Of a stretch of DNA of 64,000 nt, positions 20,497 to 24,544 are shown piece after piece. The notes beneath the pieces were generated by a model. That model searched no databases. It was not told where the DNA came from and saw only the letters and a list, made by a program, of their open reading frames with translations. The first letter of the stretch is position 1; every line of letters begins with the position of its first letter. The translations under genes were made by a program, and so were the position numbers. The stretch comes from Geothrix oryzisoli (GTDB lineage Bacteria > Acidobacteriota > Holophagae > Holophagales > Holophagaceae). Location: positions 248,001 through 312,000 of the forward strand of contig NZ_JAKZLB010000001.1 in NCBI RefSeq assembly GCF_022808865.1, given 5' to 3'.

Positions 20497-21080
20497 GCGG
20501 ACAAGGTCCCCTTGGTGGAGGGTACGCCGCCGCCGCCCTCGGCGCGGGCGGCCTGGCGCAGGGCCTTGGCCAGGGCCTTGAAGAGGGCCTCGACCTTGTG
20601 GTGGGTGTTCACGCCGCGGAGGAGGTCCGCGTGGATGGCGAGGCCGCCGCGCATGGCGAGGGCGATGAAGAACTCCCGGACCATCTCCACCTGGAAGCCG
20701 TCACCGAGGACCACCGGCGGAAGGTCCGCGTGGAACTCGCACCAGGGGCGGCCGGAGAGGTCGACCACCACCCGGGCCAGGGCCTCATCCAGGGGCACGT
20801 AGGCGTGGGCGAAGCGGGCGATGCCCGCACGGTCGCCCAGGGCCGTCTTCAGCGCGTCCCCCAGGCAGAGGCCCACATCCTCCACGAGGTGGTGGCTGTC
20901 CACGGGCAGGTCGCCGGTGGCCTCCACCTCCAGGCCGAAGCCGCCGTGCTTCGCGAGTTGCATCAGCATGTGGTCGAAGTAGCCCAGGCCCGTGCGGATG
21001 CTCGCCTCGCCGCCGTCCAGAGAGAGGCTCAGCTTTACCCGGGTCTCGGCGGTGGCGCGGTTCAGGGTGGCGGTTCTCAT
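20493..21080 (-). CDS. hisB: Imidazoleglycerol-phosphate dehydratase, monofunctional
   Basis: HisB removes water from imidazole glycerol phosphate to give imidazole acetol phosphate. The 195-residue protein contains the paired manganese-binding repeats: GYFDHMLMQLAKHGGF, DSHHLVEDVGLCLGDAL and a later MRGGLAIHADLLRGVNTHHKVEALFKA. There is no N-terminal histidinol-phosphatase domain, unlike the E. coli bifunctional HisB, so the phosphatase step must come from elsewhere. The adjacent HisC-HAD fusion is the obvious candidate. AGGAG precedes the ATG, which overlaps the stop of that fusion gene by four bases. Confidence 0.97.
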   Translation of the reverse strand: MRTATLNRATAETRVKLSLSLDGGEASIRTGLGYFDHMLMQLAKHGGFGLEVEATGDLPVDSHHLVEDVGLCLGDALKTALGDRAGIARFAHAYVPLDEALARVVVDLSGRPWCEFHADLPPVVLGDGFQVEMVREFFIALAMRGGLAIHADLLRGVNTHHKVEALFKALAKALRQAARAEGGGGVPSTKGTLSA

Positions 21081-22840
21081 GGCTTCTCCTGATTCAGCAT
21101 CGGCAGCAGGCCGCGCAAGGTCTCGGATTGGATGTCTTCCGCCACCGCGAAGCGGCTGCGGTCGGGTCCCAGGGCCGCGAAGCGCCAGGCCACTTCGGGC
21201 TTCAGCGCCGCGGCGGCCCGCAGGCAGCGGGCATCGTCCACCGTGTCCCCGGCGAAGATGATCTTCTCCGCCCGGAAGGCGTCCGCCAGCTGGAGCAGGC
21301 CCGCCGGTTCAGGTTTGCGCAGGTGGGGCGCCGCATCGCAGACCGCGGGGAGCTGGAAGCCGAGCACCCTCCAGGCCAGGTCCAGCTCCTCGGGCGGCCG
21401 TCCCGTGAGCACCGCCAGCTCCCAGCCCGTGGCCTGGAGGTCGGCCAGGGTGGCGAGGGGGCGCTCGAGACGGATGGTGTCGGCGTAGTGCTTCTGGACG
21501 GAGATCTGGGCCGAAGGCTCCAGGGCCTCCATCCGCGCATCGAGCTCTGGGAAGCCGCGGCCGTCCGCCGCTTCGATCACGGGCCGAAGGTCCACGTCAC
21601 CGTGGGCTTCGGCCAGGGCGAGGGCCCCGGCCGCCAGGCGGAAGTCGTTGTTGTAGCCGCCCAGGCGCTTGAAGGCGCGGTAGGCCTCGTCGGACCAGGG
21701 CAGGGCGGGGCGCAGGTCCGCCAGGGCCCGGGCCACCGCCTCCATGAAGCTGCGGTCCGCGTCGATGAGCACGCCGTCGATGTCCAGGACCAGCAGGCGC
21801 CGGGTCGCGCGCGGCGCCGGAGCGGGCAGCTCGCCGCCCAGGGTCGCGGCCACGCGGGCAGTGTCCGGTTCCGTGCCGATGGTGAGCCGCGCGGCACCGG
21901 TGCCGGGCAGGCGGCGCACCTTGATGCCTTCGGCCTCCAGCGCGTCCGAAGGGTCCGGCGACACATGGATGAAGTTGCCGGCGCTGGGGGCGGCCCGATG
22001 GGTGGGCAGGGCGGCGGCCAGGCGGTCGCGCCGATCTGGCAGGGCCCGCACGGCGGGCTCGAAGGCCGGGGCGAAATCGAGGGCCACGTCCAGGGCCTCC
22101 AGGCTGGCGGCCGGGATGGAGTAGGGCAGCTGCAGGGTGGCCAGCTTGGACACCAGGGCAGGATCGCCCAGGAGGTAGCCCAGGCGCCAGGAGGCGGAGG
22201 CCAGCGCCTTGCTGAAGGTCCGCAGCAGCACCACGTTCGGGTAGCGGTCCACCGCCAGGCGGTGGGTGGCCGGGGCGAATTCTGCGTAGGCCTCGTCCAT
22301 CACCACCAGGGGGGGCACGGGACGGGCCGCGGCCGCGGCCAGCAGCGGCTCCAGTTCCGCTGGCGACACCCAGGCGCCGGTGGGGTTGTTCGGCAGCGTC
22401 AGCCAGACCTGGCGGCAGTCCAGGGCCTGGAACCAGGGCTCCAGCGGAAAGCCTGTGCCCTGGGGCACCTTCCGCACCTGCCCGCCATTTCGCCGCACGA
22501 GCATGGGATAGAGGCTGAAGCCGGGATCCGGGATGGCCACCGTGTCGCCGAAGCTGAGGCCCGCCATGGCCACCAGGTCCAGGAGGGCGCCGCTGGAGGG
22601 GCCCAGCAGCAGACCGCCCTCGGGGGCGCCCACGCGCTTGCGCAGGCGCTCGGTGAGCTCCTCCTGCCGCTCCGGGTAGAGGTGGAAGGGCAGGGTTCGG
22701 AGCCGCGCCAGCAGGGCCTCGCGGGCCTCCGCGGGCCAGTCGGATCCGGCCTCGTTCATGTGCAGCCGCACGCCCGTGGGCGGTTCGGGAGGCCGCCGGT
22801 AGGCGGGCAGGTCGGCGAGATCGGGTCGGAGGAAGGACAT
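21077..22840 (-). CDS. hisC: Histidinol-phosphate aminotransferase fused to a HAD phosphatase
   Basis: Residues 1-335 form a fold-type I aminotransferase with LPNNPTGAW near 149-157, MDEAYAEF near 181 and the PLP lysine Lys211 in RTFSKALASASWRLGYLLG, as in HisC. After a proline-rich linker (about 338-347) comes a complete HAD phosphatase: DIDGVLID at 353-360, VLTGRPP, a KPEP lysine segment and GDTVDDAR. The HAD part resembles a subfamily IA group that has been seen near or fused to histidine enzymes. In this operon HisB has no phosphatase domain, so this half may convert histidinol phosphate to histidinol. ATG 22840 is used; an upstream TTG at 22882 would extend the N-terminus without family resemblance. 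Confidence 0.9.
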   Translation of the reverse strand: MSFLRPDLADLPAYRRPPEPPTGVRLHMNEAGSDWPAEAREALLARLRTLPFHLYPERQEELTERLRKRVGAPEGGLLLGPSSGALLDLVAMAGLSFGDTVAIPDPGFSLYPMLVRRNGGQVRKVPQGTGFPLEPWFQALDCRQVWLTLPNNPTGAWVSPAELEPLLAAAAARPVPPLVVMDEAYAEFAPATHRLAVDRYPNVVLLRTFSKALASASWRLGYLLGDPALVSKLATLQLPYSIPAASLEALDVALDFAPAFEPAVRALPDRRDRLAAALPTHRAAPSAGNFIHVSPDPSDALEAEGIKVRRLPGTGAARLTIGTEPDTARVAATLGGELPAPAPRATRRLLVLDIDGVLIDADRSFMEAVARALADLRPALPWSDEAYRAFKRLGGYNNDFRLAAGALALAEAHGDVDLRPVIEAADGRGFPELDARMEALEPSAQISVQKHYADTIRLERPLATLADLQATGWELAVLTGRPPEELDLAWRVLGFQLPAVCDAAPHLRKPEPAGLLQLADAFRAEKIIFAGDTVDDARCLRAAAALKPEVAWRFAALGPDRSRFAVAEDIQSETLRGLLPMLNQEKP

Positions 22841-22867
22841 GGGCAACTCGGGATGAGGGTAGGAGGA

Positions 22868-23139
22868 AAGAGCGTCCAACAAAACCCCGCGTGGTCACGC
22901 GAGGGGTGCCGGGCGAGCGAGGCGAGGAAGGTGAGTCGTAGCGTAGCGGGTGCTACGCGCGACGCGCCTGACGAAGCATCGCGACGCCCGCCACCCCTCG
23001 CCCGGAGGGATGAAGCCAGGCAGGCGCCCCGCGGCGTCAGGTCCCTTGAACAACGAACCACGTTGCCCTGCGGGCCCTTCCTTGCGGTGCATCCTGCCTG
23101 GTTTCATCGTGGCCTCGTGGGGTTTTGTTGGGCGCTCTT
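22868..23139. repeat. 272-bp structured palindromic element between hisD and hisC
   Basis: Outer arms at 22868-22894 and 23113-23139 pair over 27 positions with three mismatches (core CCAACAAAACCCC against GGGGTTTTGTTGG). Inside are two more arms. Arm A is 22899-23001: a perfect 10-bp GCGAGGGGTG stem continued by CGGGCG/CGCCCG and ending in a 7-bp GCGTAGC hairpin. Arm B is 23009-23023 with 23094-23108, 14 of 15 positions. The whole forms a three-way junction. Two of the three outer mismatches and the arm B mismatch become G-U pairs in + strand RNA, which is antisense to the his operon. No protein is convincing here. It could be a miniature mobile element or a structured RNA. Confidence 0.7.
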
Positions 23140-23169
23140 CACCAGGCTTCCGGGGAGAAGAAGCGGAAC

Positions 23170-23194: not shown

Positions 23195-24544
23195 CTAGGG
23201 GTGGTGATGGCCGCGCAGGCCGGCGCTGCGGCCGTGGTGGGTGAGGCCCTCGGCCTCGGCGAGCTGCTCGACCCAGGGGGCCATGGCGGCGGCATCCGCG
23301 GCGGAGAGCCGCAGCAGGCTCTGCCGCTTGAGGAAGGTGGCCACGCCCAGGGGGCTGGTGTAGCGGGCGCTGCGGTCGGTGGGCAGCACGTGGTTGGGCC
23401 CGGCGCCGTAGTCGCCGAAGGCCTCGGCGCTGGCGCTGCCGATGAAGACGGCTCCGGCGGTGGTCAGCGAGGGCAGCCAGGCCTCGGGATCGCGCACGCT
23501 GAGCTCGAGGTGTTCGGGCGCCCAGGCCTGGGCCAAGGCGATGGCCAGGTCGCGCTCGGCGCAGACCAGCCGCCCGTGGGCGCCCAGGCTCTGCTCGAGG
23601 ATCGCCCGGCGGGGCGAGGCGGCCACGCGGGCCTGGAGTTCGGCCTCCACCGCCTTGAGCAGGGCGCGGTCGGCGCTGAGCAGCACGGCGGCGGCATCGG
23701 GATCGTGCTCGGCCTGGGCCATCAGGTCCTCGGCCAGCCAGGCGGGATCGGCGCTGCCGTCGGCCAGGACCAGCAGCTCGGTGGGGCCCGCCAGGGCGTC
23801 GATGCCGCAGGTGCCGATGAGCTGGCGCTTGGCCTCGGCCACGAAGCGGTTGCCCGGGCCGGCGACGAGGTCCACGGCGGGCTCCCCGAAGGCCAGCCAG
23901 GCCAGCGCCTGGGCGCCGCCGAAGGGGTAGAGCTCGGTGAGGCCCAGCTCGGCCGCGCAGGCCAGCACCAGGGGATCCACGCCCCAGGCGCCGGGCAGGG
24001 TGGGCTGGGGCTTGGGAGGGGTGACACCCACGATGCGGCCCACACCGGCCACCTGGGCAGGGATCACGGTCATGGCGAGGGTGGAGGGATAGAAGGCGCG
24101 CCCGCCGGGAATGTAGACGCCCGCGGTCTTCAGGGGGCACCAGCGCTCACCCACCGTGCCGCCGCCGGGGAGGGGCAACTCCAGGTCGCGCAGACAGCCG
24201 CGCTGGCCCTCCGCGAAGCGACGCACGTTGGCGATCATCTCCCGCAGGGCGCCCATGAGCTCGGGCCGGCGCTGGTCCAGGTCCGCGCGGGCGGTCTGGA
24301 GGGCCGCCTCGGGGATGCGCAGGGCTGCGGGATCGAGGGCCACGCCATCCAGGCGCAGAGTCCAGTCCAGCACGGCCTTCAGGCCATCCCGGCGCACGTC
24401 CGCCAGGATGGCCTTGACGGCCTTCCGCGTGTCCTCTTCCATCTCCCCATTCCGCGCCAGCGCGGCCACCCAATCGCTCACTTGCCCGGGCATGTCCGCC
24501 CGGTCAGTCAGGTCATTGAAGGAGATGAAGTAACACCTATGCAC
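23195..24544 (-). CDS. hisD: Histidinol dehydrogenase
   Basis: HisD oxidises histidinol to histidine in two NAD-dependent steps at a zinc site. Visible signatures are AGVYIPGGRAFYPSTLAMTV, the NAD and zinc region VDLVAGPGNRFVAEAKRQL, AGPTELLVLADGSADP, DLMAQAEHDPDAAAVL and the C-terminal GDYGAGPNHVLPT. The GTG at 24544 gives 449 residues and includes SFNDLTD, which aligns by eye with the N-terminus of other HisD proteins; an ATG at 24493 would remove it. No clear ribosome binding site helps. It is first in the his operon but lies 354 bases before hisC, with the structured element between. Confidence 0.95.
   Translation of the reverse strand: MHRCYFISFNDLTDRADMPGQVSDWVAALARNGEMEEDTRKAVKAILADVRRDGLKAVLDWTLRLDGVALDPAALRIPEAALQTARADLDQRRPELMGALREMIANVRRFAEGQRGCLRDLELPLPGGGTVGERWCPLKTAGVYIPGGRAFYPSTLAMTVIPAQVAGVGRIVGVTPPKPQPTLPGAWGVDPLVLACAAELGLTELYPFGGAQALAWLAFGEPAVDLVAGPGNRFVAEAKRQLIGTCGIDALAGPTELLVLADGSADPAWLAEDLMAQAEHDPDAAAVLLSADRALLKAVEAELQARVAASPRRAILEQSLGAHGRLVCAERDLAIALAQAWAPEHLELSVRDPEAWLPSLTTAGAVFIGSASAEAFGDYGAGPNHVLPTDRSARYTSPLGVATFLKRQSLLRLSAADAAAMAPWVEQLAEAEGLTHHGRSAGLRGHHHP

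Follow-up and report, generated by a model that had tools for sequence, protein, structure and literature searches.

MITEs are usually viewed as reduced derivatives of a single IS that disappear together with it, and their ends are usually those of one parent IS. Chunjie, a MITE of Geobacter uraniireducens, is 178–235 bp long and lies within an operon (PMC10969869, PMC2229807), and TWA or C|TNA|G is the target for members of the PHIS superfamily, a group with ties to bacterial IS5 (PMC4482050). Within the window (the whole 64,000-nucleotide stretch of Geothrix oryzisoli DNA that was analysed), the gap between two genes of the his operon holds an element that resembles Chunjie and the Correia/NEMIS repeats in being short, gene-less, dispersed, intergenic and strongly folding, with inverted ends and a target duplication; Chunjie is also a precedent for insertion into an operon (PMC10969869, PMC2229807). 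Unlike these elements, its interior is conserved across genera while its ends vary among IS families. The CIR repeats of Caulobacter and Brucella, compared here by description, likewise consist of two long hairpin arms and a linker, but lack the end-to-end inverted repeats of this element (PMC2229807). Its ends and its 3-bp TWA duplication are like those of the IS5 family (NF033580 type, DUF4096 + DDE_Tnp_1), from which it differs in having no transposase and only the ends in common. In the open-access subset of the literature that we searched, neither the element family nor any MITE whose core can exchange its ends was described; absence from such a subset is weak evidence.

Very probably, the element is a gene-less MITE moved by an IS5-type transposase, with a conserved core that has been fitted with various IS ends. 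The features on which this account draws are as follows; the + orientation of the window element is that of the family query.

22870..23137, + strand: whole non-autonomous element, GAG...CTC, 268 bp; bounded by the ends of the copy alignment and by the empty sites of relatives
22870..22894, + strand: left terminal inverted repeat (TIR) and outer stem, tip GAGCGTCCAACAAAACCCC; from arm complementarity and the family TIR GAG(N4)TAACAAAAC
23113..23137, − strand: right TIR and outer stem; from arm complementarity and the same family TIR
22899..23001, + strand: core arm 1, a nested hairpin; from fold and covariation
23002..23008, + strand: mini-hairpin CCGGAGG at the junction, between the arms; from the fold (2 bp)
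23009..23108, + strand: core arm 2, a nested hairpin; from fold and covariation
22885..22904, − strand: predicted terminator-like hairpin followed by TTTTGTT, reading in the direction of his transcription
21077..22840, − strand: open reading frame that we take, from its sequence and established knowledge, to be hisC fused to a HAD-type phosphatase in a single reading frame; downstream neighbour
23195..24544, − strand: open reading frame, presumably hisD (named from the first-pass annotation and established knowledge); upstream neighbour

The first-pass annotation had described a three-way junction here, and its geometry was reproduced exactly: the outer arms (22868–22894 and 23113–23139) match at 24 of 27 positions, their departures on the + strand read T-G, G-T and T-T, two of which become G-U in + RNA, and 22899–23001 and 23009–23108 each close into a single hairpin, at −75.7 and −53.9 kcal/mol respectively. 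As a whole, the + strand of 22850–23160 folds at −194 kcal/mol (z = −9.8), a value that none of 100 shuffles equalled, and the opposite strand folds nearly as strongly (z = −8.6). Both G-C pairs of the mini-hairpin (helix 8) are invariant in the cross-genus alignment.

The element occupies the gap between hisD and hisC (hisC start 22840). We took this gap from 30 genomes, of which 29 were readable and one was not. It measures 357 bp in the window and 400 bp in G031; in the 27 others, closer relatives included, it lacks the element and spans only about 85 bp (range 75–110 bp), which indicates a clean insertion into a pre-existing gap. The junction of the his copy is atypical, with AAA on the left and TTC on the right and no clean TWA duplication. 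The G031 copy (L174 496–805) sits at the same base of the his gap, and its arm 2 contains an additional hairpin of 40 bp. It and the window copy are mutual closest relatives, 93% identical over shared positions (tree support 0.685), while the his flanks of the two genomes are only 79–84% identical. This shared site might reflect common descent followed by many precise losses, a transfer of the locus with its insert, or a repeated insertion.

Copies were dispersed, as expected of the mobile element with terminal inverted repeats that had been one of the initial proposals; it is this proposal that the dispersed copies, empty sites, target duplications and nearly identical ends of an autonomous IS bear out. 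The 3.2-Mb genome of origin holds seven full copies plus fragments, and the six copies outside the window are 79–85% identical to the window copy. They lie in or beside intergenic gaps and adjoin unrelated genes, as judged by open reading frames and codon bias only, with some sides ambiguous; the orthologous sites of relatives are again empty. Matches were found in 44 of 47 Geothrix (Holophagaceae) genomes and in 7 of 11 genera within Holophagaceae, and named records with a core motif belong to Geothrix species or to MAGs labelled Holophagaceae, Geothrix or Acidobacteria. The plasmids and phages that we searched held no copies; viral contigs gave no match to one core motif and a single exact 17-base match to a second. 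At L294 (1487–1756 and 1795–2028), one copy adjoins a cluster of three tRNA genes.

Where insertion sites are shared (L285, L286, L004, L009 and L011), elements are 94–97% identical, compared with 93–96% for coding flanks, and are more conserved than some intergenic flanks (82–88%). Longer relatives of 310–466 bp with the same kind of ends (L152, L153, L154, L155, L161 and L167) show that the core itself is modular: in some of them arm 2 has gained a hairpin of 40 bp, in others arm 1 is enlarged and branched. The interiors of the short versions (48–206 bp) all differ from one another, which looks more like independent deletions, or sequence lost at hairpins during assembly, than like a mobile short form. 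Because hairpins break or shorten draft assemblies, MAG copy numbers and short forms are unreliable, and many of the G011 copies (L159, L160 and L162–L165) contain NN. TIRs without a partner turned out to belong to truncated or divergent copies, and one was what is left of the IS5 end described below.

Ends resembling GAG(N4)TAACAAAAC are common to 64 elements of 48 to 466 bp. Their flanking 3-mers agree in 20 of the 64, compared with 9.9 expected by shuffling (p 0.0005), and among the 20 elements with TWA on both flanks the middle base agrees in 19 (T/T in 11, A/A in 8, mixed in 1). A palindromic alternative fits only 1 of the 64. Insertion thus directly duplicates three bases, TWA, of a C-TWA-G target, as seen in the family but not cleanly at the his copy. 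A candidate partner of the same genus was recognised only in an end scan of IS loci that allowed mismatches: L224 1423–2291 (G022) is 869 bp long, has the ends GAACGGCTAACAAAAC and GAGTGCCTAACAATAC, lies between two TTA triplets, and codes for a transposase of the IS5 family in two frames (NF033580, PF13340 and PF01609). These ends are nearly those of the element, the left one being imperfect, and beyond them only short, chance-level matches connect this IS with the MITE. A remnant of the L224 end occurs in G006. Given that a Geothrix IS of the IS5 family carries almost identical ends, the element, which is short, lacks a transposase gene, carries TIRs and occurs as dispersed copies with empty sites in relatives, classifies as a MITE, and its ends and duplication suggest mobilization in trans by an IS5-type transposase. 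The genome of origin yielded no match to PF13340 (DUF4096), PF13359 (DDE_Tnp_4) or PF01609 (DDE_Tnp_1) and no autonomous IS with such ends, so movement may be over here.

Five other genera contain 21 complete copies of the same design, 263–272 bp long, plus two longer ones, with the order outer stem, arm 1, mini-hairpin and arm 2. A three-way-junction core of ~210 bp is common to the genera, but the matched ends differ: in most of these copies the outer stem is a different, nearly perfect inverted repeat. The end types are GAGCCTGTTTCAAAGTG, GAGCCTGTTTCTGAATC, GAGCTTGTCCGTAAATT, GAGCGTGTCTTAAAAA, GGGGCTGGAAAGGCATTATC, GGGGCCTGGGAAGCAATAAA and GAGC(A/C/G)TGTCC..., and for most of them no matching IS was found. 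The last type, in L320, is identical over 15 of 15 bases to GAGCCTGTCCAAGTA, the end of an IS1182-family element (L263 101–1635, 1535 bp, G024; NF033551). The window copy has a different type of end. CTAG flanks both sides of the IS1182 element and of three MITE copies from two other genera that carry its end; because CTAG is palindromic, a duplication is indistinguishable from a longer end.

Ends changed faster than cores. Over all copy pairs, ends differ at 2.2–4.3 of 16 positions, compared with 0.3–1.1 predicted from core divergence (for example, 2.3 against 0.6, and 4.3 against 1.1), although a few copies were delimited a few bases away from their true tips, which inflates some of the extreme examples. 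The two ends within one copy differ at only 0.67 of 16 positions on average. The divergence of ends is thus up to four times that of cores, with both arms changing together. L313 and L319 are sisters in the core tree (support 99), yet each arm shows several differences between their ends. In the core tree, IS1182-ended copies form one group (85) within a clade (93) that also holds an IS5-ended copy, from one of the genomes with IS1182-ended copies, and the end GAGCCTGTTTCTGAA appears on two distant cores.

Pairing was strongly maintained throughout. In the genus alignment (51 copies), both partners vary in 41 of 90 pairs, and pairing holds in 97.7% of cells; across six genera the corresponding values were 61 of 74 and 95.2%, with a covariation score of 0.53 compared with 0.15 when shuffled and at most 0.10 when slid. 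Where a G-C pair decays, G-U still pairs in + RNA and A-C still pairs in − RNA. Counting only pairs present in the folds of both strands, we found G-U and A-C departures at 54 versus 42 within the genus (p = 0.26) and 39 versus 30 across genera (p = 0.34), p values that treat related copies as independent, whereas a small control of 14 tRNAs from the same loci gave 13 versus 0. Departures this symmetric make it improbable that a single RNA strand maintains the pairing. The hint of selection on a + strand RNA that had been read from the G-U pairs of the window copy therefore fails at the level of the family. The initial annotation had also proposed that covarying copies would support an RNA: the covariation is indeed strong, but as a sign of RNA it misleads, because it is strand-symmetric. 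It argues for a structure kept in DNA and against a strand-specific RNA. A candidate contact between complementary loops, AAGGAAGG in arm 1 and CCTTCCTT in arm 2, was rejected because one side changes without a match on the other.

These results bear unequally on the alternatives. That the element is a structured ncRNA gene, acting in cis or trans, spread by transposition and kept for its RNA function, would account for the very strong covariation, for unpaired stretches such as CTTCCTTGC that are conserved across genera, and for conservation at shared sites as high as or higher than that of coding flanks; yet a covarying fold is also expected of a structure kept in DNA, and the strand-specific G-U tolerance seen in tRNA is missing. 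Moreover, both strands fold, no Rfam family reached its gathering score (a sub-threshold mir-702 match was the only hit apart from nearby tRNAs), no sigma-70-like promoter was found for the element and most orthologous his sites lack it, which together make such a gene unlikely. Three possible causes of the pairing remain: the folded DNA has a function, repair is templated by the hairpins or, as regards the outer stem alone, a transposase needs matched ends. A MITE whose pairing is kept solely by such repair (quasi-palindrome correction), with no selection on fold or core, would fit the strand symmetry and the concerted change of both arms, in which intermediate states are few. Arm-to-arm repair leaves the conservation of unpaired positions and of total length (263–272 bp in six genera) unexplained, so it appears that repair alone is insufficient, and we regard this account as doubtful.

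The his locus itself invites a reading in which an attenuator or internal regulator of the operon was recruited from the element. The identical site in two species whose flanks are only 79–84% identical, the sister relationship of the two copies, weakly supported as it is, and the terminator-like hairpin ahead of hisC speak for it, but the 27 genomes without the insert include closer relatives and copies elsewhere adjoin unrelated genes, and we consider this reading very improbable. An operon-internal regulatory RNA, raised at first inspection, likewise finds no support in a gap that is empty in 27 of 29 readable genomes. Most likely the insert is tolerated, although it may slightly alter transcription or the stability of the mRNA; since the predicted terminator-like hairpin faces hisC, a modest polar effect is possible. 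The commonest arms also contain GCCTAAC...GTTAGGC, as an integron attC-like recombination site would, but the end types GTTATGAG and GTTACGAC violate GTTRRRY, the core site varies so that GTTRRRY/RYYYAAC is not found in all members, and insertion involves both arms at once and duplicates the target; we give this possibility almost no credence.

For the MITE that we favour, the findings suggest the following course. An IS5-family DDE transposase, acting in trans, would recognise the ends of the gene-less element and duplicate 3 bp (TWA) of a C-TWA-G target. Across Holophagaceae, the core appears to have been fitted with the ends of several IS5-like types and of at least one IS1182 type. The fold may act in DNA, as a cruciform or a single strand, to bring the two ends together, in which case almost any matched pair of ends could serve. 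An altered end might be copied to the other arm via the hairpin, or be selected to match, and the ends would then follow whichever transposases are on offer. As for the role of core conservation, we give an even chance to the idea that the heritable unit is the DNA fold of the three-way junction, a chassis, rather than the ends, both of which would have been swapped repeatedly and in concert (IS5, IS1182).

The comparison of G-U with A-C departures separates RNA from DNA structure, and the present family is a warning for RNA discovery: overwhelming covariation, usually proof of a conserved RNA, is here strand-symmetric and points to DNA. The role of a MITE interior also becomes testable. A core that keeps its fold while swapping its ends would explain how MITEs persist without a matching transposase, as in the genome studied here, and if the chassis idea is true, the element outlives any one transposase.
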